Source of the DNA: a virus
Strand: one strand, 5' to 3'
Length of the DNA stretch: 30,052 bases
Virus record (IMG/VR): IMGVR_UViG_3300010233_000180
Span: 1-30,052 of that record
Below the pieces are notes generated by a model. That model was not told the origin of the DNA. It saw nothing but the letters and a program-made list of their open reading frames with translations, and did no database searches. Below are positions 3,058 through 30,052 of the stretch, one piece after another (positions within the stretch are counted from its first letter, which is position 1; each line of letters begins with the position of its first letter). Both the position numbers and the translations under genes were made by a program.

Positions 3058-3719
3058 TTCCTATAGGTATATCTCCAAAGGGTTTTCTAGGAGGCCATCG
3101 TAAACAAGCGAGAATTCATGGGAAAAAATATTATTTTACTGGTGTAATTTGCTGCAGGGGACACATAGATTTGCGTGTGACTAAAAGCGGTGTTTGCTGT
3201 GAATGTACGCGCCTACGCAGTCTTATTAGGTCGCGTGAATACAGAAAAATCCATCCTAGAAAATCTAAAAAATATGCGCGTGAAATCATGCGAAAGTGGA
3301 GAAAAAATAATCCAGATAAAGTAAAGCTTTCTATCGCCAAGAGAGATAAGGGAAAAATTAGAAAGTCTGCTCGTATTCTTTACCATAAAAATAAGGATAA
3401 ATTTGCTAAAAAGGCAAAAATATATCGGTTAAAAAATAGAGAGTATTTTGCTGTTGCAGCGAGAAATAGGCGTGCGCTTAAATTAGGACGTGGTATTCAT
3501 ACTTTACAGCAAATAAGAAAACTTCTGGAAAAACAAAAATGGAAATGTGTATATTGCAAGAAATCGCTTAAAGACGGCTATCATGCTGATCATATCATTT
3601 CTTTGAAAAAAGGCGGCAGCAATAAAATAAAAAATATTCAATGTCTTTGCCCTCCTTGCAATCTTTCTAAAAATTCCAGAGATGCGGATGAATGGGCGCG
3701 GGAGAAGGGATATGCTTAG
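3054..3719 (+). CDS. HNH endonuclease, probably a free-standing homing-type insert (221 aa)
   Basis: The C-terminal third is an HNH nuclease: zinc ligands Cys165/Cys168 and Cys199/Cys202, catalytic ADH with His180, and Asn194. The last position is Asn203 instead of the usual His (CPPCNLSK), a common HNN variant. The N-terminus carries further cysteines (VICCRG, CCECTR) and the middle (60-145) is extremely Lys/Arg-rich, typical of a DNA-binding linker. The gene is visibly AT-richer and uses more AAA/ATA codons than its neighbours, which suggests recent transfer. It sits between the nuclease and the helicase with an ATGA overlap upstream and an eight-base overlap downstream. Such enzymes cut DNA and promote their own spread; some serve in packaging, but the location argues against that here. 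Confidence 0.9.
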   Translation: MIPIGISPKGFLGGHRKQARIHGKKYYFTGVICCRGHIDLRVTKSGVCCECTRLRSLIRSREYRKIHPRKSKKYAREIMRKWRKNNPDKVKLSIAKRDKGKIRKSARILYHKNKDKFAKKAKIYRLKNREYFAVAARNRRALKLGRGIHTLQQIRKLLEKQKWKCVYCKKSLKDGYHADHIISLKKGGSNKIKNIQCLCPPCNLSKNSRDADEWAREKGYA

Positions 3720-5337
3720 TATGGTAAAAGACCTCTTCACCCACTCCTCACTCAAGCCAATAAAGCGTGTTCCTCGCTATTACCAACGCGCTGCTGTTGA
3801 TTCCATCTGGGCGCGTATCGGTAAAGCCAAGAAGGGCATTCTGGTGTCGATGGCGACAGGAACCGGAAAATCAACCGTTCAGGCTATGGCATGTCAGGAG
3901 GCATTGGAGGGATGGCCCGATACCGGAATCCTGATTGTTACCTCAGTTAAGGAACTTGTGCGGCAGAATTTCGAGGAGCTTATTGAGATATGGCCGGAAG
4001 CTCCAGCCTGTATCTATAGTGCGGGGCTTGGCGTTAAGGATTTATCGAAGCCAATAATCATTGCTGGAATTCAGTCTATTTATAAGCAGTCGCACAAGAT
4101 ACCTCGACGTATAGATTTAATGTTTATAGATGAATGTCAGGATTTAAGCGACGAAGACGGAACCATGTTCCGTCGCTTCATTTCCGAGCTTCTGGTCATC
4201 AATCCCGACATGCGTATATGCGGCCTATCAGCCACGATTTACCGCATGAGACAAGGACTGCTTACCGAGGGTAAGAATGCGCTGTTTGATGAAGTCGTGT
4301 ACGAATATGGAATACTTCAGGGTATCAGCGATGGCTTCTTAAGCCCGCTTATCTCGAAGCCGATGGCCTTACAATTTGATGTCACAGATGTAAAGATCAG
4401 CAGTGGAGAATATCAGGCAGGCCAACTCGAAAGAGCGGTGGACAAAGATTATCTGACAATTGCTGTTGTCGATGAGCTTATAAAATATGGAGAAGACCGC
4501 CGCTGCTGGCTGGTGTTCTGCGCAGGTATTGACCACGCCATTCATGTCAGGGATGAAATCCGCAGCCGTGGAATTTCCTGCGAGACAGTCCATAGCAAGA
4601 CTCCGCATCCTGAACGCGATGCTATTTTCAGAAGATATAAGGCAGGAGAAATACGCTGTATAACCAATGTCGGGGTTATGCAGAAAGGATCAAACATACC
4701 GCAGATTGACTTGATTTCCATGCTCCGCCCTTCAAAGAGTGCAGGATTTTTCGTGCAGTCTGCCGGTCGTGGAACCCGTCTTTATCCCGAAAAGCAGAAT
4801 TGCCTGCTGCTGGATCATGCTGGTCTTTTAGTAGAACACGGCCCGGTGGATATGATAAGGCCAAAGCCAAAAAAGAGAGGTGAGGGAGAAGCTCCAATCA
4901 AGCAATGTCCTCAGTGCAAAACAAATGTCTTTGCGGGTATAAGATTCTGCCCTGTATGCAATTATGAGTTTGAATTTGAGAAACAGGAGATTGACCGCGA
5001 AGCTGCGAACATGGCCGTCCTCTCCACCCAACTCCAGACCGAGACACATGAGGTTTCGGGAGTATTCTACTATCGCCATACCAAGGAAGGTCGTCCGGAT
5101 TCCCTGCGCGTGGAATATCTCTGCGGCCCTACCAAGAGTTTCAGACAATGGTTCCTCTTTGAGTCGGTAGGACGCCTGCGGGAAGAAGCCTGTGCATGGT
5201 GGAGGGCACATGCCGGTACGCAAGCGCCGAACACCATCACCGATGCCATAAATCGCAAGGGTGAGCTTAAAAGTCCGACAAGGATTGATACCTGCCGGAT
5301 TGGGAAATATCACAAGATTGTCCGGGAGGAGTTATGA
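3712..5337 (+). CDS. Superfamily 2 DEAD/DEAH-type helicase with zinc ribbon (541 aa)
   Basis: All main SF2 motifs are visible: PRYYQ near residue 21, Walker A MATGTGKST (47-55), DECQ (140-143) in the DEAD/DEAH position, SAT (173-175), a motif V-like VGVMQKGSNIP (320-330) and QSAGRGTR (349-356). Four cysteines (399, 402, 413, 416) form a zinc ribbon after the helicase core. Such proteins unwind or translocate on nucleic acid using ATP, and phage versions act in replication or recombination. I chose ATG 3712 because GGAGAAGG lies seven bases upstream; a longer start at 3682 lies deep in the HNH gene without a better site. The stop overlaps the next small gene by ATGA. Confidence 0.93.
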   Translation: MLSMVKDLFTHSSLKPIKRVPRYYQRAAVDSIWARIGKAKKGILVSMATGTGKSTVQAMACQEALEGWPDTGILIVTSVKELVRQNFEELIEIWPEAPACIYSAGLGVKDLSKPIIIAGIQSIYKQSHKIPRRIDLMFIDECQDLSDEDGTMFRRFISELLVINPDMRICGLSATIYRMRQGLLTEGKNALFDEVVYEYGILQGISDGFLSPLISKPMALQFDVTDVKISSGEYQAGQLERAVDKDYLTIAVVDELIKYGEDRRCWLVFCAGIDHAIHVRDEIRSRGISCETVHSKTPHPERDAIFRRYKAGEIRCITNVGVMQKGSNIPQIDLISMLRPSKSAGFFVQSAGRGTRLYPEKQNCLLLDHAGLLVEHGPVDMIRPKPKKRGEGEAPIKQCPQCKTNVFAGIRFCPVCNYEFEFEKQEIDREAANMAVLSTQLQTETHEVSGVFYYRHTKEGRPDSLRVEYLCGPTKSFRQWFLFESVGRLREEACAWWRAHAGTQAPNTITDAINRKGELKSPTRIDTCRIGKYHKIVREEL

Positions 5338-7198: not shown

Positions 7199-7530
7199 GC
7201 GGCCTCCCTTATCTCTCCATAAAGTGTTGCCCGGCGTTCCTTATTCTTGAAGTGGATGGCATCACGGCCAAACGCCAGATAAAAGAGGATATGGTCAAGA
7301 TTCTTCGCCATTATCAGCAGTCCGACAGTCGTAAGAATCTCCGCATTCTTCGGGTTCATAAGCTCGTCGGGATGGCACCAGATAATCCCGAGGAAGGAGA
7401 TATCTACAGTGAAGCAGAGTGCCACGGCAGCGAACTTAAGGGCAAATCGCTTCCATTCCCCAAGGGCAATGACAGTCGCCCCGGTGATTGCGGAAAATAC
7501 CGCCGACGCTATGATGAAATACTGGATCAT
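7195..7530 (-). CDS. Second small membrane protein of the lysis cassette (111 aa)
   Basis: About three membrane segments are visible (roughly 3-22, 30-51 and 64-84), followed by a charged C-terminal region (FKNKERRATLYGEIREAA). ATG 7530 has a near-perfect AAGGAGG five bases upstream and overlaps the preceding stop by ATGA. A longer in-frame start at 7575 lies within the previous gene without such a site. Placed before the holin-like gene, it may be an antiholin, a second holin or an unrelated membrane helper. No diagnostic motif separates these options. Confidence 0.75.
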   Translation of the reverse strand: MIQYFIIASAVFSAITGATVIALGEWKRFALKFAAVALCFTVDISFLGIIWCHPDELMNPKNAEILTTVGLLIMAKNLDHILFYLAFGRDAIHFKNKERRATLYGEIREAA

Positions 7531-9926
7531 GCAGCCTCCTTGACAGGTTTCTTCGTGTTGCCGTTCTTCAGCCAATCCTTGAATTCAGCCATCGACATGC
7601 GTGTTACCTTGCCAATACGCTGATGCCCCTTACCATCCGAGAATCCAGCCTTGTAAGTGGAAACAGCTTCATCTCTTGATGCGAACCCGAGCATGCATTT
7701 GGCCTCGTCGTATGCCTTATTATGCAGGTGATGCTGATCAATAATATATACGCGATTGCTCTTTTCATGAGGCCCAATATAGCAATCTACGTGTTCTTTG
7801 TCTGCAGCCGTCGTGCCACGGATGTAGCCATAGTCAGCAGGAGAAATATTCTCCCATCCCTTACCGCGTCGTATCTCGCCCTTCTTTGTCTCGATACTTA
7901 TATCAAGACCCTGAAACTTAATATGTTGTTTAGGATAATTACCAGCGGCAATTTGTGCTTCTGAAGGTATAGCGCCGCCCTTGGCATAGCCATTTTTCTT
8001 CAGAAAATCGTCATATTCAGGACCAGAAAGGTTTTTAAGTGTATCCTCCGCAGCTTTGCGTTCGGGAGATTTGTACTCCTGACCTTCAGTAGTCGCCAGC
8101 GGCCTGCTTTTATTCTCCCGCATGAAGTCACGCTGCCACTGCCCACTGCCAGTCATAGGCTCCCGCGTGTCACCATAGGCTGCAGCCGGTTGCGCTTCAC
8201 CTGGAGCCACAGAGGGCCATGCCTGTCGGCTTTGCACACCAGAATTATATTCTTCCGGTGTCTGAGGCCGCGTATTGCCAGCCCAATCCGATACCATTGG
8301 TCTTTCAGGGGCGGGAAGCGCTTGTGTGGTGTAGGGTAACATCTTCTGTGCGGTGGACGCGCTATAACGTGTACCAGCGTTCATACCCTGCCGCGCCAGC
8401 TTCTCATCCAAATGATTCTCATATGCTTCATTTGCCGCCTGCTTCCACTGCTCCATACGGTCGGTGATATGCGTTGCGGCGTCGGGGTCCCAGCCTTCTA
8501 TTGCAGCCTTTGTAGGCAGGGAATCCATGATATTCGACAGGCTCCATCCGTAATTCCCGCGCGAAGCGTAAAGCGCTGCCTTGACTATTTTCTTCACGCC
8601 AGACGGGACAGCGGAATTCTTGGCAATATCAGTCAGAAACTGACCCTGTAATTCCTTGGGTACAAACGCCATCATCTTCTGAAGTTCCGCCTCATTCTTT
8701 ACAGCGGAAAGGGACGATATCTGGTTTATGGTGTCACCCATCAAATCTCCGGGATTATTATCCTTCCCCATGTTAATCTGAAAATCCTTCTGACTCTTTG
8801 GCGACCACTTGCCTGTAAATGCGGTATCATCCTGAGTGGATTTCATTATGTTGTAATGCGCATCGTCAGCCGTATTTATAAGAGTTCCCCAGTTCGGAAA
8901 TTCCTCCTTTGCCGTATTCACGGCGCTATTTACCGGCTGCTGTATAGCCCCATACACTTCACCCTCCGGCGACTTCGGATTCTCACGGAATGCATCGTCC
9001 ACTTGGTCTTTAAGCTTATTAAGGCGTGTCGGGGTAATTGTCCCATCGTCGTTGAACATATCACGCCAGCTATCAAGTTTACGGACCAAGGGTGTGCCGT
9101 CATAAGCCGGATCGGAACTATATTTTGAATGAAGCGCATCAAGCTGCGCTCTGGTATCTGCGGCGTTGAAAGTATGGTCGTTGCCAACTTCATCCGCCAT
9201 CGAATATATGCCGTTCTTTGTCGCCCGAGCGTCCTGAATATTCTGGACGATGCCGCTTGCGTACATTCCACTCTTTACCTTTGAAATCTGCTGTGGAGTC
9301 ATGGCCGCAATCTGATCGGCGCTTATACCGCTATCATCAAGCATCGCCTGCGTTGACGGCAATACGCCAGTCTTTCTGGCGGTGCGCAGGGCAGTATTAT
9401 ATGCAACATCGGAAGATGCGGCATTCAATCCGGATTTAGCTACGTCGCCAGCCATCCCAAGAACAGATTCAACCGGAAGAATTTTAAGGATAGCTTCGGC
9501 ATCGCCTGCAGCCTCGGGGTGAGCCTTCGCAATATCACTTACAGTATTCTCTGCCTCCATTCCTGCATTGCCAAGAGCGCGGAACTGGGGCTTAGTATCA
9601 AGATAGTCAGCAACCGATTGTGCGCCACTCTTGGCCGCGCCGCTTACAGCATCAGCCGCATCCTTCGCATAATCATATCCTGGAATTTTCTTTACCAGAT
9701 TGCCAGCGGCATCCCACGCTGCGCCAGCCTCATTACCCATTGTCTGCAGGGCGGCGGATGGTCCGCTTATCTTGCCAGCCGCAAAGTTGGCAGCTACGCC
9801 CTGTTCATTCTCAAGATTCGGGCTTGGCTCCGGCGCAAGACCGAGCGCCGATGACATCATGTCCGCAGTAGCCTCATCGGGAAAATTGTGAATAGAGCCA
9901 TCAGGCATTGTTACAGTCTGGGTCAT
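7527..9926 (-). CDS. Large ejection-type virion protein with C-terminal pyrophosphatase-like domain (799 aa)
   Basis: The N-terminus (MTQTVTMPDGSIHNFPDEAT) is a short module common at the start of phage virion proteins. A long Ala-rich, probably helical body follows (about 40-640), with a proline-rich linker near 560-620. A YAKGGAI motif at about 647 leads into a compact C-terminal domain, about 662-795, with DYGYIRGT, ADKEHVDCYIGP, VYIIDQ and MSMAEFKDWLKNG. This resembles the inorganic-pyrophosphatase-like (InPase) domain described in phage polyvalent proteins. Size, position and composition suggest an internal protein ejected with the DNA, like T7 gp16 or P22 gp16/gp20. The start overlaps the previous stop by ATGA, and its own stop overlaps the membrane-protein gene. 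Confidence 0.85.
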   Translation of the reverse strand: MTQTVTMPDGSIHNFPDEATADMMSSALGLAPEPSPNLENEQGVAANFAAGKISGPSAALQTMGNEAGAAWDAAGNLVKKIPGYDYAKDAADAVSGAAKSGAQSVADYLDTKPQFRALGNAGMEAENTVSDIAKAHPEAAGDAEAILKILPVESVLGMAGDVAKSGLNAASSDVAYNTALRTARKTGVLPSTQAMLDDSGISADQIAAMTPQQISKVKSGMYASGIVQNIQDARATKNGIYSMADEVGNDHTFNAADTRAQLDALHSKYSSDPAYDGTPLVRKLDSWRDMFNDDGTITPTRLNKLKDQVDDAFRENPKSPEGEVYGAIQQPVNSAVNTAKEEFPNWGTLINTADDAHYNIMKSTQDDTAFTGKWSPKSQKDFQINMGKDNNPGDLMGDTINQISSLSAVKNEAELQKMMAFVPKELQGQFLTDIAKNSAVPSGVKKIVKAALYASRGNYGWSLSNIMDSLPTKAAIEGWDPDAATHITDRMEQWKQAANEAYENHLDEKLARQGMNAGTRYSASTAQKMLPYTTQALPAPERPMVSDWAGNTRPQTPEEYNSGVQSRQAWPSVAPGEAQPAAAYGDTREPMTGSGQWQRDFMRENKSRPLATTEGQEYKSPERKAAEDTLKNLSGPEYDDFLKKNGYAKGGAIPSEAQIAAGNYPKQHIKFQGLDISIETKKGEIRRGKGWENISPADYGYIRGTTAADKEHVDCYIGPHEKSNRVYIIDQHHLHNKAYDEAKCMLGFASRDEAVSTYKAGFSDGKGHQRIGKVTRMSMAEFKDWLKNGNTKKPVKEAA

Positions 9927-12661
9927 GGGGCCTGCACCAGTTTCCCATCTTTTATGACCCAGTTTGTCACCTTCGGGGTTGCAGAATCCTCCGCAGGCTG
10001 CGTGAGTTCTGCCTGCGCCTTATGACCAAGGATATGGGTCTGGAAGTCATTGCGCCCTGTAGCGCTTTCATACTTCTGCTGCAGTCCCTGCATCTGTCCG
10101 TTCATCAGACTCTTGTAAGTCTGTATGACGCCCTTTAAGAGCGCTGGGCTATTGGCCTTGTTCAACTGCGCCTGTGCCGCTTCACGGTCAGTGACGCCAC
10201 CGCCCGAGCCGATGACCGCCTTTACCACCTCATTTGCCACAATCTGCTTTGCGGCATCAAAGTTTGTCGGCGCTGTGGAAAGGCCAAGCTGCGTCTTGGC
10301 TACATTTCCTATCGCATTGACAGCTTTCGTATCTCCATTACCAAGCGCATCCACAAGGCCGCTAAGGGTATCCAGATGCGGAATAGCCACATCTAGCGAT
10401 TTAACGATATTGCTGGACGGCCCCTTGGCAAAATCGAGATAGGTTGGATAGGCCGCAGCGGTGATACCCGGATTTATCTGGCGCGCAAGAGTCGTTGCCA
10501 TGCTATATACCGGACTCTTCGCCGCGACATATACGGTCGGCCACGGCTCCTCGCCGGAAGCAATCATCTCCGCATGCGTTGCGACTGCAGGCGGAAATTT
10601 TCCTACTGCTGCATCTATATTTTCAGACGATGTATAGGGCGAAAGAAGTTTGCTATTCACGCGCTCGCCAACAGAGCCGCCACCGACAGCGGGAATCGTT
10701 GGTCCATATGTACCGCCTGCAGGCGCAGGAGAAGCGGTTGGCGTTGCGCCAGCGCCTCCGGTCGGACTCATATAATCCGGCAGTCCGGTAAGTGGCTGAA
10801 TCTTTGAGGAACCCGGTGTGGCCCACCCAATGTCATTACCCATGATATCCTTGACCATGACAGGTTTGTGTAACTCCTGACCTTTTATACCGAGTTCACC
10901 CTGCTGATTTTTATCTGTATTGAAGTCCCGCAATTTCTCCTCGCCAAGCTTATCCTTCTCCATCTGCGCTTCATCCATCAGCTTCTGCGCATTCTGATGG
11001 AAGGTGCCCTCTTCATAATTCTGCTTCTCAGCCTGCACCTGCTGATTGGTATAATTATTCAGACCGATGAGCGCACCCTGTCCAATGTCCACCAAGGGAT
11101 TGCGCGAACGACCAGCCAGCGTACCGGCAACACCCGCTGCAACCGCAAGCCATGGATTCGCCTCATGCGTGGTCGGCATATCAGACGTATATCCGGCATT
11201 GATAGGATGATCCGGAGCATTGACCGGAGGCGTTGGAGGTGGCGGAGTGATTCCGCCATAAGGTTCCTGACCATTTATAGCAGCCAAGCCAGCCGCAGCT
11301 TGCATATCTTGTGGGGAATCTCCAACATTCCAATCGCTATCTATAGGAGGAGCGCTATTAACTTGTGTAGCTCCGCCATCATCAAAGTGCTGCACAATAC
11401 CACCGCGTTTCATAGTCGGAAAGCTGGGGATAGTCATGGCCGCAGTATTGCCAGTGCCATAGGACTGCCCCTGCTGCATCTGCTGCAGTCTGAGCCGTTG
11501 CGGTATTTGCTGGACATGCTGCACTATACCTTGCGAGGCGTTTATCTCCGGAGTGCCGCCTTGTCCATCCGTAGCCCCACCGGAATCATGATGAACAGGA
11601 CTCCCGTAAATTGACTCAAGGTCTGCCTGACTTGCGGCGTCCATACCAGCTATGGCACCGCCTGTATATGGTGCACCGGAATTAAGTCCACCGCTCGCCG
11701 CAAACTCAGCGTATGTCGGGGCGACGTGAGCACCGCCTGACGGGCCGGAGGATATAGAAGCCGGAGCCGCAGGTTGAGGTGCGACAACGCCAAAGGTATT
11801 GCCGTTTGGCGGGTCTATGGCATTTGGATTGGCTGAATTATAAGCCCACGGCACGCCACGCGAGTTGCCATTCTTATCGTATCCAGCCGCGACACCCGGA
11901 GTCTTGGAACCGCCTGCCGCATATCGCGTAATACCACCGCCGCGCTGCAGTCCGAATAGCCCCTGACTTGGTGCAGTCGTAGAACTGGTGCTTGTTCCAC
12001 CCTCGTTGCTGCCGATGCCCTCTGCGATATTCCCAAGCCATCCTGTTGTCTGGAAGGGATACGCCTGTTGCTGCAGGAATTGCTCATACGGCACATTAAG
12101 TTCAGACTGTGCCTGCTGCTGCTGCAACTGACCTGCGGTAAGCTGCGCATTGGCTCCGGTAAGCGTATTGTTAAACGTATTTTCCTGCTGTGTATTTGCT
12201 TCCTGAAGCGCCTGAGAATAGCCCTGATTGGCAATACCGGCATTCGTGGCATTGTTGGCATAAGCCTGCTGGCCTCCGAGGATTCCTTGCGCCACGCCTG
12301 CGCGGTCGCCGCCCCATGCGCCTGCTGATATAGCGTTGCCCTCAAGCTGTTGCTGCTGCTGGGCATCCTGATTGTTCTCAGCCGCTATCGTGGTATTCAG
12401 CACATCCTTTGTATAAGGACTCTCGTATCCCTGTATCTGACTCGCCGTGACAGGGCCAGTCATGCCCTGCATGTTATTGATGGTATTGTACGCGGAAGTT
12501 TCGGCAGGCGTCTGACCAGCGACGACCGGCCCATGATATTGATTCAGCGGCGCACCGGCAACCTGATTGGCCTGCGCGACAACCTTATTGTACTCCGCTA
12601 AAACGTCTGGAGGTACAGTTGTTGAGGTATTTGAGGTAGTTGTGCCCCCCCCTCCCGACAT
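9923..12661 (-). CDS. Large Gln/Gly/Ala-rich internal virion protein (912 aa)
   Basis: The N-terminal third resembles a widespread podovirus-type virion protein: VAGQTPAETSAYNTINNMQG, YESPYTKDVLNTT, a Gln-rich helical stretch (QQQQQ), and ISAGAWGGDRAGVAQG. The middle is low-complexity Pro/Gly/Ser sequence with recurrent di-glycine motifs (QRGGGITRYAAGGSK at 239-253, MKRGGIVQHFDDGGAT at 417-432). The C-terminal third (about 690-880) is a more regular helical region. It probably sits inside the capsid or tail and enters the cell with the genome, but no enzymatic motif is visible. AAAGGA precedes the ATG by nine bases. I have not assigned it to a named T7 or P22 ejection protein. Confidence 0.82.
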   Translation of the reverse strand: MSGGGGTTTSNTSTTVPPDVLAEYNKVVAQANQVAGAPLNQYHGPVVAGQTPAETSAYNTINNMQGMTGPVTASQIQGYESPYTKDVLNTTIAAENNQDAQQQQQLEGNAISAGAWGGDRAGVAQGILGGQQAYANNATNAGIANQGYSQALQEANTQQENTFNNTLTGANAQLTAGQLQQQQAQSELNVPYEQFLQQQAYPFQTTGWLGNIAEGIGSNEGGTSTSSTTAPSQGLFGLQRGGGITRYAAGGSKTPGVAAGYDKNGNSRGVPWAYNSANPNAIDPPNGNTFGVVAPQPAAPASISSGPSGGAHVAPTYAEFAASGGLNSGAPYTGGAIAGMDAASQADLESIYGSPVHHDSGGATDGQGGTPEINASQGIVQHVQQIPQRLRLQQMQQGQSYGTGNTAAMTIPSFPTMKRGGIVQHFDDGGATQVNSAPPIDSDWNVGDSPQDMQAAAGLAAINGQEPYGGITPPPPTPPVNAPDHPINAGYTSDMPTTHEANPWLAVAAGVAGTLAGRSRNPLVDIGQGALIGLNNYTNQQVQAEKQNYEEGTFHQNAQKLMDEAQMEKDKLGEEKLRDFNTDKNQQGELGIKGQELHKPVMVKDIMGNDIGWATPGSSKIQPLTGLPDYMSPTGGAGATPTASPAPAGGTYGPTIPAVGGGSVGERVNSKLLSPYTSSENIDAAVGKFPPAVATHAEMIASGEEPWPTVYVAAKSPVYSMATTLARQINPGITAAAYPTYLDFAKGPSSNIVKSLDVAIPHLDTLSGLVDALGNGDTKAVNAIGNVAKTQLGLSTAPTNFDAAKQIVANEVVKAVIGSGGGVTDREAAQAQLNKANSPALLKGVIQTYKSLMNGQMQGLQQKYESATGRNDFQTHILGHKAQAELTQPAEDSATPKVTNWVIKDGKLVQAP

Positions 12662-14709: not shown

Positions 14710-15834
14710 TTAATTTCCTGTCGCAAACCAATCGAAGTTTATAGTTCCTGCCCCAGACCCATTCCTTATCTGGTATTGCGATGTGCTTATTGAATTTCCA
14801 CCAGTGCTTTCATTGGCATTAACTCCTGTATTCGCATTAACATGCTGACTGACGACAAAGGCGAATACATTGGTTGGAAAAGCTATTGGGAAGGAGAAAG
14901 TAGATGTAGTATTTGCACCAACAGATTGTGTGCCCCATTGCAAAAAAACTCCGCTTGGAAGTTCAACATATCCTTGCGTTGCTATGCTGCTGGCGCGATT
15001 GACAAAGGCAGTAGTTGCAAGCTTTGTCGAGGCGTCATTAACCGCCTGAGTGGTGCCGGTTGCTCCGGATGGGATAAGCGGAGTTGCACCGAACAGATTG
15101 GCGAGCGCGGTTACGTTATTCGCCACATCGCTGAGATTATTCGCGGCCAGAAGACCGCCAGAAGGATTCAGCAGGACATATTCCGTTCCATCCCAGAACA
15201 GCGCAATAATATTCCCGGTTATCACTTCACCGCCTGTAAGCGCCACAAGCCCTAAACTGCTTATTCTCTCCACTGCCTTAGCCGCTCCATCCGGGCCCGC
15301 AAAGGTCATGGAAGCATTGTTTGAATGCCCTGCCGTGGCATAGATGATATTTCCGACCGCAAGCGCCCATGCCCCCGGCGTGACAGCGGCAAGAGTCTGG
15401 GCATTTGCTGTGCCACCTGTTGAGGCTTGGCCGACAAAAATATTGTTTATAAGGCCGGTGGGTATCAGGTTATCGGGATTGGAGAATACAAAGGCAGTCT
15501 GTCCCTGCGGTGCAACGAAGTTTGAAGTACCCCCGGTAATAATCACCGTGACGGTGAATGCACCAGTGGTATTATTCTGGATGAAATAAAATCCGCCGAG
15601 AGCAGGAAGTATATACTGGATATTACCCGTCAGGAGTCCGGTCAGGAGATGATAGGCATTCTGCGCGTCGGCAATGGATACATTGACATTGGTATTGCCA
15701 GCGACGTTCGCGTTCTTCCTGCCACCGAAATTCAGGTCAATTGCGGTAAAGTTCTGGTTATTGACAATACCCCATGTACCGACATCACTACCAGTCGCCT
15801 GATTATTATATCCTTTATTCGGTGTCGTGCTCAT
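14710..15834 (-). CDS. Tail fibre protein with gp53-like C-terminal domain (374 aa)
   Basis: The N-terminus (GSDVGTWGIVNNQNFTAID, 15-33) matches the attachment region of many short phage fibres. A linker TQAVNDASTKLATTAFVNRA (262-281) leads to the C-terminal domain with GYVELPSGVFLQWGTQS (288-304) and FSFPIAFPTNVFAFVVS (313-329). This is the pattern of the putative tail fibre gp53-like C-terminal domain, a probable receptor-binding tip. No signal peptide is present, unlike the two spike genes further upstream. ATGA overlap couples it to the small gene before it. Confidence 0.88.
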   Translation of the reverse strand: MSTTPNKGYNNQATGSDVGTWGIVNNQNFTAIDLNFGGRKNANVAGNTNVNVSIADAQNAYHLLTGLLTGNIQYILPALGGFYFIQNNTTGAFTVTVIITGGTSNFVAPQGQTAFVFSNPDNLIPTGLINNIFVGQASTGGTANAQTLAAVTPGAWALAVGNIIYATAGHSNNASMTFAGPDGAAKAVERISSLGLVALTGGEVITGNIIALFWDGTEYVLLNPSGGLLAANNLSDVANNVTALANLFGATPLIPSGATGTTQAVNDASTKLATTAFVNRASSIATQGYVELPSGVFLQWGTQSVGANTTSTFSFPIAFPTNVFAFVVSQHVNANTGVNANESTGGNSISTSQYQIRNGSGAGTINFDWFATGN

Positions 15835-16062: not shown

Positions 16063-18078
16063 TTACGCCACTCGTCCACTTCCAGTACCTATCCATAGAA
16101 ACTCACCAAGCCTCCAGAAACTTCCGAATCCACTGCTGCTTATCGTAAGTTGCGCGAACCTACCGCGCCCGCGAACTATGATATATTCAGTCGTACCGGC
16201 TACCCACGTGTAAGTCTTGGAAAACAAAGGAGCATCGTCAGGATAGTCTACCATGTTCACGGTTATTTGTATAGAGGTCCCGCTTGCCGCCACAAAATCA
16301 GGTATCATGCGCTCAAGGAAGATGATTACAAGCCCCTCTGCAAGCTTGAAGAAACCTGTGGTTATCGAGGAAGTCATCGGCAAATTGTCCGCATCATTGC
16401 CGCTTTCATGCTGTTGAATCAGCGCCGCTCCATCCACACCTATCGGGTTGTCGGCAAGTATATCATTCTGGTCATACCATGCGGTGCGGACAAGAGTACC
16501 AAAATCCCATGGTCCGGCCTGATTGTACTTTATATACGAATCAATCTCCCCGGTTCCCGACAGGGAGGCATAAAAATAGAAGAATTCATTGAAATGGCTG
16601 TCCGGGGCAAGAAGGAATTTATCCTCCACAGAGAAGTTGGCATTCTGGAAGAAGATATCCCATACTGCACAGGGAAGTGGTGTCACCGCCGCACCATTGA
16701 ACTGGTTAAACTGGTTGAGCGAACACCAGTAGACGATACCGCCAAGAACACCGACAGAGCGCATGGAAATCAACCCGCAGCCCTGGGCTATCTCATTAAA
16801 TCCATAGACGAGCGGAAAGCCGATATATTGCTGGAGCCATACCCCGAGGTCAGTGAAGTGCATGCCATATTGAGGGCCTTGCAACGCCCCTACGATACGG
16901 CTCCCGCGCGATAGCCTGAAAGTGCCCGCCTGATTCGTTGCCGATGCCGTCCAGCTATTAAAATTTGCCACGTCGCACCAGCCGATGAGCATGGGATCCG
17001 GGAGGCTGGTATTAGGATCGGTAATGCCAAAGGCAATGATCTGCTGTTGCTGCATTGCGACAAAGATGCCGATGGCGACAGTCGGTGAGCCTGAGATTAC
17101 GGTCGCGGGATTTTCAAAGAAGCCGGAGGCGGGGTCCCACTCATAGATATGACCGCCAATCGGGCAAGCTATCAGGATGCGCCCAAACTGTCCGAAGGAC
17201 CATTGGCGCAATGGCGTCTGCGCGCCAGATGTGCCGCCTATGCCGTAAGGGCCAAGGCCGTATCCACCCTCGCCATATCCCATCGCCGTGGCTCCTGTGA
17301 CAAGCCCGGTCTGCAGAAGATATAAAATCCTGACCTGACCGCCATTCTCGGAGCCGGTGGTCGTGCTCCCGGCAGAGGTTGGCCCGGTAATCGTGAAATT
17401 GTTCGCATCGAGAACAGTCTGGACGACAAACTGGCCGAACAGGACTATGGTCGCAACAGTAGTCGAGACATAGACGGTATAGATACCCCCCGGAGAAAAC
17501 CCATGGCCTGTGAGAGTCACAATCACTGTTGCCTGTCCGCTATAGGTGTGGAACAGCGCAGTCGTGCCCGCGCCTGCAACCGTTGACGTAGCCGGAGCTT
17601 GCGCTGTGAAGGTATAATGCGAGGCGTCAAGTACGGCAGTGACCTGATAAAGACCCTGCAGAATAAGACCGCCAACCGCAGTCAGGGTGAGCACGTCAAT
17701 CCAGTCGCCTGCGGCAGGACTGGTCGTCGCGTCATGAACGATTATGGTTGATTGTCCGCTATAGGTCGAGAAAGGTGTATTCAGGTTATCGGTCGCATAT
17801 ACCGGAGTGATGTCGTATATCGTACCTGCATTCCAGACCTCAAGGCGTTGCTCCGTCCCTGCTGCGATATACCCCACACCCTGCAAGTCAGCCCATGCAA
17901 AAAGCCCACGGCAGACACCAATGAGCGCAGTGGAGGTGATTCTAGCCCAACCGCCACATTTCTGGGCTAGGCCCTGAAAGAAGCGGATAAGCTGAGAGCC
18001 GCTGAATCCGGACTCATTGAGTAACTGGGACTTTTCGAGGTTGACTCCCGGCAGCATCTTGAGCGGCGTCTGGGACAT
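16063..18078 (-). CDS. P22 gp10-like tail (stabilisation/nozzle) protein (671 aa)
   Basis: The N-terminus (LPGVNLEKSQLLNESGFSGS, with Trp and Gly repeats after it) and the body with propeller-like strands (GRILIACPIGGHIYEW, GIVYWCSLNQFNQFNG, LVRTAWYDQNDILADN) resemble podovirus packaged-DNA stabilisation proteins of the P22 gp10 type, a ring of the short tail. Two tandem beta modules are inserted at about 104-172 and 176-248; both contain TYSGQ and VLDA near their ends. The start overlaps the previous stop by one base (TGATG). The role is assigned from fold-like pattern and gene order, so T7 gp12-type nozzle is an equivalent description. Confidence 0.72.
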   Translation of the reverse strand: MSQTPLKMLPGVNLEKSQLLNESGFSGSQLIRFFQGLAQKCGGWARITSTALIGVCRGLFAWADLQGVGYIAAGTEQRLEVWNAGTIYDITPVYATDNLNTPFSTYSGQSTIIVHDATTSPAAGDWIDVLTLTAVGGLILQGLYQVTAVLDASHYTFTAQAPATSTVAGAGTTALFHTYSGQATVIVTLTGHGFSPGGIYTVYVSTTVATIVLFGQFVVQTVLDANNFTITGPTSAGSTTTGSENGGQVRILYLLQTGLVTGATAMGYGEGGYGLGPYGIGGTSGAQTPLRQWSFGQFGRILIACPIGGHIYEWDPASGFFENPATVISGSPTVAIGIFVAMQQQQIIAFGITDPNTSLPDPMLIGWCDVANFNSWTASATNQAGTFRLSRGSRIVGALQGPQYGMHFTDLGVWLQQYIGFPLVYGFNEIAQGCGLISMRSVGVLGGIVYWCSLNQFNQFNGAAVTPLPCAVWDIFFQNANFSVEDKFLLAPDSHFNEFFYFYASLSGTGEIDSYIKYNQAGPWDFGTLVRTAWYDQNDILADNPIGVDGAALIQQHESGNDADNLPMTSSITTGFFKLAEGLVIIFLERMIPDFVAASGTSIQITVNMVDYPDDAPLFSKTYTWVAGTTEYIIVRGRGRFAQLTISSSGFGSFWRLGEFLWIGTGSGRVA

Positions 18079-20999: not shown

Positions 21000-21323
21000 T
21001 CAGTGTTTCCACTTCGCCATTGTTTGCGCTCGCTTTGCATCCCGCGCTTCTTCAGGATTACTTGAATGAGCCGCTTTTGAAAGTCTAGCCGTGCCTATCT
21101 TTTCGCCTTCAGGGATTCCCATCTCGCGGTGAAGCTTTCCCTTCTCGCCTCCCGGATGAAAGCCTTTTGTCTTGCCACCCCTCGACCGCTTATCAAGACG
21201 CTCCTTTGGCTTCTCACCATAAACCTTCCCACCCCGCTTTTTCTTAGGTGGTGTTTTGGTCTGTTCTTCCTGACCTTCGTCGTCAGGCTCGGAACTGCCA
21301 ACATCATCCTTGGTGTCGGCCAT
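21000..21323 (-). CDS. Small basic protein with RGGK motifs (107 aa)
   Basis: The ATG at 21323 overlaps nothing and follows the previous stop by one base; upstream in-frame sequence to 21470 runs through the neighbouring gene and is rejected. After an acidic start (DDVGSSEPDDEGQEEQ) comes PPKKKRGGKVYG, then ERLDKRSRGGKTKGFHPGG, and a C-terminal domain (GKLHREMGIPEGEKI, ARLSKAAHSSNPEEARDA). The latter pattern recurs in small uncharacterised phage proteins. It could bind DNA or act as an assembly factor. It shares the RLDKR(S/A)RGGK element with the gene just upstream. Confidence 0.78.
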   Translation of the reverse strand: MADTKDDVGSSEPDDEGQEEQTKTPPKKKRGGKVYGEKPKERLDKRSRGGKTKGFHPGGEKGKLHREMGIPEGEKIGTARLSKAAHSSNPEEARDAKRAQTMAKWKH

Positions 21324-21324
21324 A

Positions 21325-21582
21325 TTAGTCGTCCTGTTTCCCGATGGCTTGCTTTTCGCTGAAACCAGCGCGCATCTTGCTTGGCGCAGCACCGGATAAC
21401 GGATGACTTGGCGAAGTGATCTTTCCACCGCGCGCACGCTTATCGAGCCGCATCTTGGCGGCACCGCCATGGGCGTGATGCATCTTCTTCACCTTGCCGC
21501 CCTTTTTCAACGGCTCATCGGGAGTTTCCCCGTCTTCGCCCTTGTCGATATCGACTTTACCGCCTTTTTTGCACGCTTTCAT
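21325..21582 (-). CDS. Small Lys/Gly-rich protein with GGKV repeats (85 aa)
   Basis: AGGAG lies eight bases before the ATG. The sequence has CKKGGKVDI, LKKGGKVKKMHHAHGG and MRLDKRARGGKITS, so three basic di-glycine motifs in 85 residues, and a positively charged, probably unstructured character. The partner gene directly downstream carries a closely similar RLDKR(A/S)RGGK stretch, which suggests an old duplication or shared binding target. DNA binding or a scaffold-like role is possible; there is no proof. Confidence 0.75.
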   Translation of the reverse strand: MKACKKGGKVDIDKGEDGETPDEPLKKGGKVKKMHHAHGGAAKMRLDKRARGGKITSPSHPLSGAAPSKMRAGFSEKQAIGKQDD

Positions 21583-21652: not shown

Positions 21653-23944
21653 CTAATTCTGGTGTACCTGTACTGTTACGGCAATATTTGAAGATGCGCA
21701 TGTACCGGAAGTCTCGGCAAAAGCCACATAATCCCCTGCTGTAATTGATGCATTGCTTACTGTACCATCCGCCACTGTTCCTGCTGCTGTCACAGTCACT
21801 GTCCCGATTGTTACCGGGCTAGATGCGCATGTCGCACTTGTGCCGCATTCAAATACAGTAATTATCGGATTTCCGACACAGGAAAAAGTTGATGCAGATC
21901 CTTCAATATTATCGACTGTTGATGCTTTGGAGAATTTATGGAATACGGCCTTAGTGGCGTTTAGCGCAGTAATAAGACCAGTCTGGTAACTGATATGATC
22001 CACATCGTTGCTGTTGAGCGTATTAGTGCTTTTACCAAGTCCTGTCCCAGCAGCGCTTATAACCTGTACACCATTCTGATTTATGGTTGTGGCATTTATT
22101 GTTCCTGATTTATTCCCCTGAGTAGCATTGCCAAAATCAAAGACTGCCGCAGAATCACGCGATATGCAGGTATCGGCAGCCGCAGCGGCATCGCTAGTGC
22201 TGGAATAGCAGTATAACCCAGTGCTGGCTTGTCGATAGAAGGAATTACCGCTGGCATATCCCAAGGCTGCAAATACACCACTATTGCTTTCATCGGCTAT
22301 GCGAATCTCACCTGCGCCACCATCCGTACCCGATCCGGCACTGGTGATGGAGAAATTATGCCCTCCTGACGAACTATTGTTAAGATTTAATGTAGTTCCA
22401 AGAGTGCTTGAGGATATGAATGTACCGGCATTCTGAGTCGTGCCACTGGTGGAAAAATCCTGCCCAAGAGTAAGAATGGGAGCATATGCAAGACTTCCGG
22501 CGACTATATTATCGCGTGAGATGGAATATTGCGTTGAATCAAGATTGCCACCAATAAAATTTATCTGGTTATTGCCCAGAATATTCTCTGCGAAATAATT
22601 AGGGGCTGTCAGACCGTTGACTCCCGAGCCACCTGAGAATCCGGTGAAGGATATAGTTTTTCCACAAGTGGCATTAAATGCAATAATAGATTCAGCCCCC
22701 TGACTACCTGCAAGACCGCTTCCTGAATAAGAGCCGCTGGTCACATCGTCAGCACAATTCCCATCATAGAATTCATCTACTCCAAAATTAGCCTGAAAAC
22801 GGGTCTTCACCACCCATAGAGGTCCATTTATCTCAAGACCGGGACCTGCTGCAGCGCATACGCCAGAGAACCCGGAATGTCCGTTCTCTTCTACCGTATC
22901 TATATCAAACATGACACCTTCAGTACCGGCATTAGCGCCGACAATGCCGCCACAGGCATTGCCAGAAATAACGCCGCCACGCCAGAACAGATCGGTGATA
23001 TTTCCATTGCCTGCCAAGGCATTTTCACTGACGTTTACATTAAACAGACGCCACCCCATGTAGTTGGAACAGGTAGTACCTGCGCCAGTATATGGTGTGG
23101 CAAAAGTTGACCCGGAGCCTGATGTGTTTATACCGCATCCAAAGGCAGTGCCCTGACCTCCGATGCCTGAATCAAAGATATAAAAACGCGGTATCTGTCC
23201 GACCCCGACGTAATTAAAGGATGTCCCGAAGGCGGATATCCCCTGTTGTCCACCATCTCCGGCAATATTTATTGACCACCATACATTATCAGTCTTGCCA
23301 TTTGCATTGTACCATATGTGGTTAGCCGTCGTGAAGAATCCGGAATTTATATAAACAAGGCAGGAAGCGTTAGGATGCCCTTCAGGGTCATAGGAAATAT
23401 TTTCCGAACTGCAAAAAAATACCAAGCCGTCACAGGGAGAGTTAAACTGCTGCTGCTGATTATATTTACCGGGGTTAAGTTTAACCAGTTTATTACCAGA
23501 AGCGCATGCCGCTGCAGCGGCATTGGCAAAGACAGGCTCATCATCTCCAGACCCGCCTCCTACACCTCCGCCGCCTGTGTGTCCGGGAAAATCATTCACT
23601 AATACATATCCGGCAGATTTTGCACATGTCGTATTAGATGTATTGCAATTTACAGTCGGCGTATTTGTTGTCGCGCTAAGAGTGGTAAAAGTGCCTGCCG
23701 CAGGATTTATTCCTCCGATGGTCACACCATCTATAGTTCCGCCTGTTACGGCCACTCCGCTTGCACTCTGCGTTGACATACTGCCAAGGTGTGTTCGTAC
23801 ATCATTGCCAGTGGCAGGAATAGACAGAACTGTCTGGGTAGCTGGATTATATGAGCCAGCATCGGGAAGTGAACGAAAAGTGGTCTGAGCCAACGCAGGG
23901 AATGCCAGAAGGAGGATGGATAGAAGTGCGATAATCTTCTTCAT
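21653..23944 (-). CDS. Secreted-type spike-like beta-helix protein, Cys-rich (763 aa)
   Basis: The first 19 residues form a clear Sec signal peptide: Lys2-Lys3, a hydrophobic core (IIALLSILLLAF) and ALA before Gln20. Next comes a fibre-like repeat (GGTIDGVTIGGINPAAGTF and TTLSATT), then DDEPVFANAAAAACASGNK with LNPGKY, the usual opening of a right-handed beta-helix of the tailspike/pectate-lyase kind. A C-terminal domain (from about 675) contains FSCVGNPIITVFECG and TGTV-like strands. About 18 cysteines lie after the signal peptide. It probably binds or degrades surface polysaccharide. AGGAA lies seven bases before the ATG. Confidence 0.82.
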   Translation of the reverse strand: MKKIIALLSILLLAFPALAQTTFRSLPDAGSYNPATQTVLSIPATGNDVRTHLGSMSTQSASGVAVTGGTIDGVTIGGINPAAGTFTTLSATTNTPTVNCNTSNTTCAKSAGYVLVNDFPGHTGGGGVGGGSGDDEPVFANAAAAACASGNKLVKLNPGKYNQQQQFNSPCDGLVFFCSSENISYDPEGHPNASCLVYINSGFFTTANHIWYNANGKTDNVWWSINIAGDGGQQGISAFGTSFNYVGVGQIPRFYIFDSGIGGQGTAFGCGINTSGSGSTFATPYTGAGTTCSNYMGWRLFNVNVSENALAGNGNITDLFWRGGVISGNACGGIVGANAGTEGVMFDIDTVEENGHSGFSGVCAAAGPGLEINGPLWVVKTRFQANFGVDEFYDGNCADDVTSGSYSGSGLAGSQGAESIIAFNATCGKTISFTGFSGGSGVNGLTAPNYFAENILGNNQINFIGGNLDSTQYSISRDNIVAGSLAYAPILTLGQDFSTSGTTQNAGTFISSSTLGTTLNLNNSSSGGHNFSITSAGSGTDGGAGEIRIADESNSGVFAALGYASGNSFYRQASTGLYCYSSTSDAAAAADTCISRDSAAVFDFGNATQGNKSGTINATTINQNGVQVISAAGTGLGKSTNTLNSNDVDHISYQTGLITALNATKAVFHKFSKASTVDNIEGSASTFSCVGNPIITVFECGTSATCASSPVTIGTVTVTAAGTVADGTVSNASITAGDYVAFAETSGTCASSNIAVTVQVHQN

Positions 23945-23954
23945 ATTATTTTTC

Positions 23955-26093
23955 CTAAAAATCTATACGCATTTCACAATCCACTGCATAAACAGTGTTT
24001 GCCTGAGAACTGCTTGGAGCATTCACGGAAGCAATGTAATATCCGGATGAATCCTTTGACGGGTATATCCCCAAAGGTTGTGTCGTGGCATTCTGCGGTG
24101 TGCATGTAACAGTGGTGGCGTTACCACGAAAAGCCCCGTACTGCACACGGATAAGATTTCCCGATCCTGCACTGGTTCCTGTTCCGAAGGTCAGGGAAAC
24201 GCCAAAATCGCCCTTGGCAGTCGTCACAAAGGCAGGCGGAGTTCCGCCAAGCGCAGCTTGCGCAGTAAGTGTCGGAACATGACTGCCAGTACCTGAAAAG
24301 ACGCCTTCATTTGTTATTGACCTGCTTCCGCCAGTACCAAAACCTGCAAAAATCCTATAAGCTCCGGTTAACAGATTCCCAAAGAAGCCATCCTCAGTTG
24401 TGAATCCGTTACTTGTATTGCGCGAAACTGGCGCGGTAGATGGCTCAAAATCAGGCGAGATTATGGATATATTGCCTGAATGTCCGGGCGTCAGATCGTT
24501 AAAGGAAAACTGCGCAGCGTCTGGAGGAGTTGTCTCTGGAAAACCATTGGTATGATAATCTTCCAGATTCACCTGCGGACGCACCATGACGTTGAGATTT
24601 TCAGTCCCGGTAGTTCCTGTATTGTTCCCTTGGAAGGTAATTCCGTTCGCGGTCCCTTTCTGGATGAAGTCTATATAGACGCCAAGGAAAACAGCATTCC
24701 CAGCATTTATATTTGTGGAATTGGTCTGCCAGTTAATGCCACCTCCGCCATAGGACTGGATATCATAGAGGCTCACCAGCAGGGAATTAAGGGCGTTATA
24801 GGCGTAGTGATTGCCATCTCCGCCAAAACCCACCAGATTGCGCCATTCCGAATGGAGGATGCCGATATCGGGCTTTCCACCTACCAGTACGGTTGGGGCA
24901 AGATTGATGCCATTTCCTGTATTGATAAAACGTATTTTATCCGCAAATCTCCATCCAAAGTCCTCCAGATTAAGAACTCCCTTGGTAATAGGCGAGCAAA
25001 TAACATCCGTGGCCGCTGTAGTTTGTAAAATCACTGTCCCGCCAAGATAAGGCGCGGTACTATCGGTATCTGTAATTGCTGTAATAGGAAATATTCCGGC
25101 CCCCTTGAACGTGATGGGGTTGGGAAAATTCAGACATGAGCTTATGCGATAAAGCCCAATTGGCGCGAAGAAGGTATTATAGGAAGGCGTGGCATTGATT
25201 GCCGCCTGAAGCGCCGCAGTATCATCAATGCCATACTCAAAACCGCCAGAAGTCTGAAAATTGATATTGAACGTAGCTCCGGTTCCGGCTCCGCTGGTGC
25301 TTCCTTGCGAGACAGGATTTGAGGGCGTAGAGGTATAAAGTCCACCCTGATTGACTGTAACAGCATCCACTCCCATATTTAGCGTCAGGGTCGCCCCAGT
25401 AAGGCTACAATTCGAGGTTACGGGTTCCGCCGCGAGACTTGTCGGATTAGTCGTGTACTGTCCGCCAGTGATAACCGTGCCAAGAGCGGAAATTACATTG
25501 CCGGAAATCGTCGCATTAATCTGGAATAACTGCGGACCTGTTCCTGTCGTGCCAGTCAGAATACAAGCCCCGTTCGTTCCGCCTGATCCCGCTGCGTTTA
25601 CACTGGCAGAAGCAAGAAGTGTGTCGAATACATTCAGGACGGCAGGAGCGGTTGACGAGCCGCCTGTGAGGGTAACAGTATCTCCGGCAGCATAGCTTCC
25701 CGCTCCACTCTGTGTGGCACTGTGTCCAGCAAGATAGGCATTTGATATGGCCGCTGATGTAGTGCTCGAAGCGTTTGTAGTAATGGTGATGTTATTCGTA
25801 TCGATATAAGAAGAAATTCTTGTATTTAGCGCTGCCCCATTAACGCCAGCACCGTAAATTGTGATTAGATGGTTGCTTCCTGCGTCACCGGGCGTGAAAG
25901 TTGCGGAAGGCGCATTCAGGATATTTGATCCTGACTTAATGAGAGCGCCGGAAAGTTGCTTCCATTGTCCTGTAGTGTCAGGCGGCGTATAAACGCCTGT
26001 GCCGGTATTCGGCGGATTATACGCAGCTTCACCCTTACCAGAGAAAATGATCAGGCAGGAGATAAATAATAAAATATTCCTAAGTAATGACAT
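23955..26093 (-). CDS. Second secreted-type spike-like beta-helix protein (712 aa)
   Basis: The N-terminus MSLLRNILLFISCLIIFSGK ending GEA-A is a plausible Sec signal peptide, cleaved near residue 23. A Gly/Ser/Thr-rich beta region follows. From about 290 the pattern YGIDDTAALQAAINATPSYN with FFAPIGLYRIS and FKGAGI is the classic start of a right-handed beta-helix spike or polysaccharide lyase. Six cysteines remain after the signal. The start overlaps the preceding gene by 14 bases. It is probably a receptor-binding or depolymerase spike; the catalytic residues cannot be picked out by eye. Confidence 0.8.
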   Translation of the reverse strand: MSLLRNILLFISCLIIFSGKGEAAYNPPNTGTGVYTPPDTTGQWKQLSGALIKSGSNILNAPSATFTPGDAGSNHLITIYGAGVNGAALNTRISSYIDTNNITITTNASSTTSAAISNAYLAGHSATQSGAGSYAAGDTVTLTGGSSTAPAVLNVFDTLLASASVNAAGSGGTNGACILTGTTGTGPQLFQINATISGNVISALGTVITGGQYTTNPTSLAAEPVTSNCSLTGATLTLNMGVDAVTVNQGGLYTSTPSNPVSQGSTSGAGTGATFNINFQTSGGFEYGIDDTAALQAAINATPSYNTFFAPIGLYRISSCLNFPNPITFKGAGIFPITAITDTDSTAPYLGGTVILQTTAATDVICSPITKGVLNLEDFGWRFADKIRFINTGNGINLAPTVLVGGKPDIGILHSEWRNLVGFGGDGNHYAYNALNSLLVSLYDIQSYGGGGINWQTNSTNINAGNAVFLGVYIDFIQKGTANGITFQGNNTGTTGTENLNVMVRPQVNLEDYHTNGFPETTPPDAAQFSFNDLTPGHSGNISIISPDFEPSTAPVSRNTSNGFTTEDGFFGNLLTGAYRIFAGFGTGGSRSITNEGVFSGTGSHVPTLTAQAALGGTPPAFVTTAKGDFGVSLTFGTGTSAGSGNLIRVQYGAFRGNATTVTCTPQNATTQPLGIYPSKDSSGYYIASVNAPSSSQANTVYAVDCEMRIDF

Positions 26094-29335: not shown

Positions 29336-30052
29336 CTAGAGTAACGGCTGAGTTCCGGCGATTGCTCTCCAGTCATTGTAACCAAAGCTGTAGCGCTGGT
29401 AGCCCTTCACAAGCACGTTATCAGTCGTGTCATCGGTCCAGATGGTAGTCTCGAACGGAATGCGCTCAAGATAGATAAGTCCTTTGATATTGGTCAGCAC
29501 ATACCAACCGTAAAGCGATGTCAGGAAGTCCAGCACCTCGTAGCCTTCCGGCAACTGGCCGGTAGCAATAAGGGCGTTCACATCGTTGTCGGCGGTGCCG
29601 GGGCGAAGTTCGGTCTTGGTCAGGCGCGATGCCACATACTCAAGGGAAGGCGGTACAAGAAGCTTGCGACCGCGCGCAAATACCTTCAGATTGGCATTGT
29701 TGCGGAAGTTGCGGATCATGATGAGCATGTTATAAAGCGATGTCTCATTCAGATCCACGTCGGTCGTCGGCTGGTTGGCAACCGTGCCGCCATCGACGGG
29801 ATGCGCCGTATTGATAAGCGAAACGCCATCACCGCCGATAAGTGTATTATAGACCGTGGCGGTATTCAGCACGTTTGCGGCAAGGATTTCCTGACCTTGC
29901 TGGAATGATTCCAGAAGACCGAGATTCATTGGGTCGAATGCAGTCTTGTAAAGATTGTCGTCGATTGATTTGCGGGTAAGCGCATAACCAAGGGCGATTT
30001 CGATGTGCTCCTGCGTATATACATAACGCTGGCCGGAGTTGTTATCGAAGGT
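29336..30052 (-). CDS. Major coat protein, 3' part (at least 238 aa, cut by the window edge)
   Basis: The reading frame stays open to the right edge, so only the C-terminal 238 residues are seen. HPVDGGTVANQPTTDVDLNE with LYNMLIMIRNFRNNANLKVF and LLVPPSLEYVA is the pattern of phage major capsid proteins of the gpT-like/HK97-fold group: an extended Asn/Thr loop, then a substrate-like strand with VPP. EVLDFLTSLYGWYVLTNIKG and QRYSFGYNDWRAIAG close the protein. The start lies beyond the window, upstream of the first visible residues TFDNNSGQRY. It is followed after an 18-base gap by the 404-residue structural gene. Confidence 0.88.
   Translation of the reverse strand, partial: TFDNNSGQRYVYTQEHIEIALGYALTRKSIDDNLYKTAFDPMNLGLLESFQQGQEILAANVLNTATVYNTLIGGDGVSLINTAHPVDGGTVANQPTTDVDLNETSLYNMLIMIRNFRNNANLKVFARGRKLLVPPSLEYVASRLTKTELRPGTADNDVNALIATGQLPEGYEVLDFLTSLYGWYVLTNIKGLIYLERIPFETTIWTDDTTDNVLVKGYQRYSFGYNDWRAIAGTQPLL

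Follow-up and report, generated by a model that had tools for sequence, protein, structure and literature searches.

The phage late gene module described here raises the question of where its spike proteins are made. The assembly of tailed-phage virions is assumed to take place entirely in the cytoplasm, and to our knowledge the known tailspikes carry no Sec signal and fold there. The analysed stretch of viral DNA (the window) makes up a complete viral record; it is 30,052 bases long, falls in the class of linear fragments and has 31 predicted genes. It contains two adjacent genes encoding spike-like proteins of 763 and 712 residues, both of which appear to begin with a Sec signal peptide. Are these proteins exported, and if so, could they still become parts of the virion?

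Two late genes with predicted export signals

The two spike genes lie in late orientation, with the gene for the major capsid protein on one side and tail genes on the other (Table 1). One of the tail genes encodes a gp10-like stabilisation protein, and the window phage is therefore assigned to the podoviruses. Directly downstream of the 763-aa gene, at positions 21000-21582, are two small overlapping basic proteins rich in lysine and glycine (KKGGKV and KRGGKT repeats), which gave no family match where searched. Farther away, at positions 7527-9926, a late protein of 799 residues displays PHROG matches that include minor head protein, endolysin and DarB-like antirestriction; it is likely to be a virion protein that is internal or ejected.

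Table 1. Position, strand and supporting evidence of the window features discussed in the text.
Feature	Position	Strand	Evidence and remarks
763-aa gene, putative exported spike/fibre	21653..23944	-	ORF, N-terminus; 18 Cys, all in the mature chain
Predicted Sec signal peptide, 763-aa protein	23888..23944	-	Score and shuffles; predicted cut after residue 19, MKKIIALLSILLLAFPALA/QTTF
Jelly-roll tip domain, residues 642-763 of the 763-aa protein	21656..22021	-	12-contig alignment, AlphaFold2 model, PDB match
712-aa gene, putative exported tailspike	23955..26093	-	ORF, N-terminus; 7 Cys, 6 in the mature chain
Predicted Sec signal peptide, 712-aa protein	26025..26093	-	Score and shuffles; predicted cut after residue 23, MSLLRNILLFISCLIIFSGKGEA/AYN
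Predicted right-handed beta-helix, about residues 273-600 of the 712-aa protein	24294..25277	-	tblastn, alignments, VIA-align
Major capsid protein (partial)	29336..30052	-	PHROG major head protein, E 5.5e-10; same late module as the spike genes and upstream of them
Tail stabilisation (P22 gp10-like) protein	16063..18078	-	PHROG 3287; tblastn to podovirus 'stabilization protein' genes; downstream of the spikes
Tail fibre, gp53-like C-terminus	14710..15834	-	Pfam PF21882; 0 Cys, no signal peptide; internal control

A rule-based signal-peptide score, which requires a positive n-region, an uncharged hydrophobic core and agreement with the (-3,-1) rule, is passed by two of the 31 window genes, and these are exactly the two spike genes. 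When the first 45 residues were shuffled, the observed scores of the two proteins were matched in 0.02% and 0.005% of cases. In the 763-aa frame the ATG is preceded by AGGA and an in-frame stop is found seven codons upstream, while the closest other starts come at codon 18, a TTG that lacks a ribosome-binding site, and at codon 56, an ATG. The 712-aa frame also has an in-frame stop seven codons upstream, and no alternative ATG, GTG or TTG in its first 70 codons. Mis-called start codons are ruled out, since neither gene has a usable alternative start. A first-pass annotation of this DNA had proposed that both spike genes, and no other late genes, carry Sec signals, and this holds, as do its coordinates and lengths for the two reading frames. 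It had also estimated about 18 cysteines in the 763-aa protein; there are exactly 18, compared with 0-7 in the other large late proteins of the window.

Searched as whole proteins, neither chain matches any family in Pfam, PHROG or PADLOC. They contain no lysis domain (Pfam, PHROG) and no defence match (PADLOC), which rules out a lysis or defence protein as their identity, nor do they contain a virion-docking domain recognised by Pfam or PHROG.

Folds and relatives of the two proteins

The tip domain of the 763-aa protein, a jelly roll made up of its C-terminal 122 residues, was modelled with good confidence by AlphaFold2 (pLDDT 88.6, pTM 0.82). The top PDB match of this model in both structure aligners is the tip of the long tail fibre of Agrobacterium phage 7-7-1, with a moderate Z of 8.9. 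At the sequence level, the protein and its tip gave chance hits only against the sequences of solved structures, and no close whole-length relative of the protein was found among 50,697 phage records. The tip is, however, present in 11 other viral contigs, and the alignment of all 12 reveals four invariant cysteines (residues 689, 700, 706 and 749 of the window protein). The proteins carrying it vary from 164 to 1602 aa and their middle parts are mostly unrelated, although the L004 and L005 proteins resemble each other along most of the chain. A signal peptide is present at the N-terminus of all 12, in ten as judged by the score and in two (L003 and L006) by eye. At the sensitivity used, the tip was not found in about 85,000 species, each represented by a single genome, and a captured host gene is thus ruled out.

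Signal-bearing genes cluster somewhat around the tip gene, making up 11 of the 83 genes that lie within 3.5 kb of it and two of the 61 at greater distance (p 0.03). At least three neighbours of the tip gene in L011 also have signals, and together with it they are found between capsid and tail genes, a position that exported spike genes also occupy in L017, and in L015 there are four genes with signals near the tip gene. The L011 cluster of exported fibre-like proteins further includes a gene (10103-10978) with a possible twin-arginine (Tat) signal, ITRRNLLRASLAAPALWLPRSGVSPANA. Contig L003 encodes a 469-aa protein (2796-4205, the same as L010 1885-3294) in which a signal peptide is followed by an N-terminal region like that of the PBR31 tailspike and by a Peptidase_S74 self-cleaving chaperone. 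This protein ends in a C-terminal transmembrane segment, LSMGILISFCVAVAAVVRRRRIA, and it could be a fibre precursor tethered to the inner membrane and freed by S74 cleavage.

The first-pass annotation described both spike proteins as beta-helices, and it is for the 712-aa protein that the model and a structural match to the Sf6 tailspike bear this out; the middle of the 763-aa protein has no relatives on which a model could be based. The overall model is poor (pLDDT 44.8), and residues 3-18 of the signal peptide are helical in a low-confidence part of it, but pLDDT is about 60-87 across most of the beta-helix. VIA-align of this region gave Z values of about 21-22 to ORF18 of Geobacillus virus E2 and to the Sf6 tailspike. 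Bacterial epimerases and lyases that act on polysaccharides rank close behind, and Foldseek alone gave weak scores. The model is thus taken to confirm a predicted right-handed beta-helix of the tailspike type. Only one partial relative of the protein was found among the 50,697 phage records. By tblastn, the minor tail protein (gp23) of Gordonia phage BobBob is 33-34% identical over the beta-helix, and five further homologues of the beta-helix are found in viral contigs (L099-L103). None of these six relatives has a signal peptide, and five of them have odd cysteine counts.

Both homology and synteny support the assignment of the window proteins to tail-spike and fibre modules, the evidence being the Sf6-like beta-helix, the fibre-tip jelly roll, the homologous minor tail protein, the S74 chaperone and PBR31 tailspike-like region of the L003 protein, and the location of the genes amid capsid and tail genes. 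Modules of this type are also found without signals. An 820-aa protein of L003 shares, along part of the chain, 44% identity with the signal-less gp58 of BcepMigl, and the L011 proteins resemble tail proteins of AH2 and MMDA13, both of which are signal-less. A second exported fibre family, described below, has a C-terminus that resembles the tail fibres of Phimunavirus and Drulisvirus, which have no signal. The existence of such homologues indicates that export has been added to ordinary modules several times. Export as a lineage-wide trait of these podoviruses is ruled out by the relative MW202675, which has the same tail module and signal-less fibres; the trait therefore belongs to the spike modules and not to the phage lineage.

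Signal boundaries and cysteine parity in exported fibres

Signal peptides were also found on gp19 of Burkholderia phage BcepC6B, which is annotated as 'tail fiber', and on orf035 of Xanthomonas phage PBR31. The search for relatives of this second family used the first ~80 residues of the mature chain as query, and the signal, being left out, could not bias the result. Matches were obtained in 60 viral contigs, one of which (L066) appears to be BcepC6B itself, and in seven Burkholderiaceae genomes, where prophage copies are present. In all 67 a signal peptide is found directly in front of the match. The first-pass annotation had considered that relatives might start downstream of the hydrophobic stretch. 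This was not seen, as the 12 tip proteins and the 67 loci of the second family all keep the signal.

All 49 unique motif-bearing N-termini of the second family fit the (-3,-1) rule at one and the same mature start: position -1 is occupied by A, G or S and position -3 by A, S, V, G or T. Mean identity is 27% in the last 15 residues before the boundary and 82% in the first 24 after it. A variable signal followed by a conserved mature start at a fixed boundary is the pattern expected of signal peptides that are cleaved. The hydrophobic N-termini might instead be uncleaved membrane anchors or hydrophobic segments that dock the protein on the virion, and hydrophobicity by itself is compatible with an uncleaved anchor. 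Such an explanation does not fit well with small residues that are conserved at -3 and -1 of a fixed mature start while the sequence upstream varies freely, and we consider it very improbable; the cysteine counts given below also argue against it.

A passage in PMC7678975, citing Dutton 2008, states that exported proteins of Gram-negative bacteria prefer even numbers of cysteines. The mature chains of the two window proteins contain 18 and 6, both even. In the tip family the mature count is even in 12 of 12, in five cases only once the signal-peptide cysteines are removed, and among the cysteine-bearing cluster representatives of the second family it is even in 36 of 41. Among 32 curated signal-bearing proteins the even:odd ratio of mature counts is 27:5, compared with 5:11 in a control set of 16 cysteine-bearing fibres and spikes without signals (Fisher p 4e-4), and across all loci it is 62:15 for signal-bearing proteins, including a few probable membrane proteins mis-scored as signals, against 130:158 for the others (p 1e-8); both p-values are optimistic because sequences within families are related. 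The preference appears only when the signal is removed, as whole-chain parity in the 32 curated proteins is near random at 18:14, and this too speaks against an uncleaved anchor. Median cysteine content is 1.55% in the curated signal-bearing proteins and 0.68% in the signal-less fibres and spikes. This difference is seen only against other fibres and spikes; in crude cysteine density across all loci no difference was seen between the signal-bearing genes and the rest. Together, the boundary and the parity are good evidence that the chains would be cleaved and their cysteines fully paired in disulphides.

Burkholderia phage Bm1 contributes a third kind of protein. Its CDS_0099 (L106 2163-5168), deposited as hypothetical, is 1001 aa long; with a signal peptide and as many as 10 cysteines, it resembles an exported fibre of a contractile-tailed phage. 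No signal on these fibres is mentioned in the PBR31 and Bm1 papers. In six loci of the second family (L050, L060, L062, L067, L070 and L083) the exported fibre gene adjoins genes that, by their N-termini, resemble O-acetyltransferases of the acyltransferase-3 type, which may be a hint of receptor modification.

Spikes of the virion or free proteins

For the spikes described here, Sec export, predicted cleavage and probable oxidation are well supported by the sequence evidence. The core of the first-pass annotation, that spike-like proteins carry export signals and putative disulphides, unlike ordinary tailspikes, is borne out and extends to many phages. It had left three functions open: depolymerases exported before lysis, spikes that mature in the periplasm and attach late, and proteins that change the surface of the infected cell. 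Our proposal is that both genes encode receptor-binding tail spikes. The two chains would be made as Sec precursors, the host signal peptidase would remove the signal peptide, and the mature chains would form trimers and acquire their disulphide bonds in the oxidising periplasm. Once the membrane has been broken by holin and endolysin and the compartments mix, the spikes would dock on the tail hubs as the last component of the virion. We regard the chances of this whole scheme being right or wrong as evenly balanced. Late docking we infer from the virion-type architecture of the L003 protein, with its S74 chaperone and PBR31 tailspike-like N-terminal region, and from the behaviour of the P22 tailspike, which is added late and can also be added in vitro. 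No virion proteomics or activity assay of any such exported spike or fibre was found.

The same signals and disulphides would suit a secreted enzyme. The proteins might be depolymerases or glycan binders derived from spike modules that are not virion parts, released to the periplasm and then to the medium at lysis, where, by degrading or masking surface polysaccharide, they would keep progeny from sticking to debris or would exclude siblings. In its fold the 712-aa protein is nearly as good a match to the polysaccharide lyases that bacteria secrete as to tailspikes, an ordinary fibre is also encoded by the window phage, and O-acetyltransferase-like genes, recognised by their N-termini, are found near several second-family loci. 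Further, in BcepC6B and PBR31 the exported fibre gene lies between a signal-less tailspike gene and lysis genes; next to such an ordinary tailspike it could encode an accessory protein. A trimeric-fibre-type tip, an S74 chaperone and the head-binding-like N-terminal region in L003 are nevertheless features of virion appendages, the signal-less homologues are annotated as minor tail or tail fibre proteins, and in L011 and L015 genes for four to five such proteins follow one another, more than one enzyme needs. Free-acting proteins are the main rival reading, less likely but plausible, and the evidence favours periplasmic, disulphide-bonded maturation followed by late attachment.

A change of the cell surface, with an exported receptor blocker giving superinfection exclusion or lysogenic conversion, is unlikely. 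Phage-encoded exported receptor blockers are known, such as the T5 lipoprotein Llp, and the prophage copies of the second family in Burkholderiaceae would agree with such a role. A Sec signal alone, however, leads only to the periplasm and not to the surface, neither window protein has a lipobox or an outer-membrane anchor, and the genes form part of the late structural module and point in the late direction.

If spikes do mature in the periplasm and attach late, the host-recognition part of the virion is made in another compartment, and infectivity can come to rely on the Sec and Dsb systems of the host. Recombinant spikes of such a class would need periplasmic expression to fold. The broader claim, that a widespread class of tailed phages finishes its virions outside the cytoplasm with spikes exported via Sec, oxidised in the periplasm and mounted at lysis, we put at slightly less than even. 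Were it true, spike export would be an optional module, acquired more than once, that ties infectivity to the secretion and disulphide-forming machinery of the host. The idea is directly testable, since the isolate phages BcepC6B, PBR31 and Bm1 encode such proteins. What appears to be new, judged by sequence, is that spikes and fibres of known type are exported, with signals on dozens of phages; the full texts searched, among which subscription journals are thinly covered, yielded no paper that deals with Sec signals on the receptor-binding proteins of tailed phages.

Several known systems share parts of this picture. BcepC6B gp19, PBR31 orf035 and Bm1 CDS_0099 have predicted signals but are not homologous in sequence to the window spike proteins. 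BobBob gp23 shares the beta-helix of the 712-aa protein but has no signal peptide and one cysteine, and its host is Gram-positive. Endolysins and spanins exported by Sec/SAR are likewise phage late proteins that use host Sec, but they differ in fold and role from the window proteins, which lack lysis domains. The long tail fibre of 7-7-1 consists of a beta-helix plus a triple jelly roll (PMC12796354). Its C-terminal jelly roll (PDB 9rkv, residues 473-587, after the beta-helix) is the best match of the 763-aa tip, but the fibre has no signal peptide and four cysteines, and sequence similarity to the tip is undetectable. Disulphide networks have been described in the 7-7-1 capsid (PMC12796354) and, according to the title of PMC10811340, in the tail of phage Milano; no passage on export was found in the latter paper. 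As these virions are rich in disulphides and the 7-7-1 long fibre is signal-less, export is not required for virion disulphides. With the tailspikes of the Sf6/P22 type the window shares the right-handed beta-helix of the 712-aa protein and a late module containing a gp10-like protein, while the window proteins differ from them in carrying predicted export signals and even numbers of cysteines.
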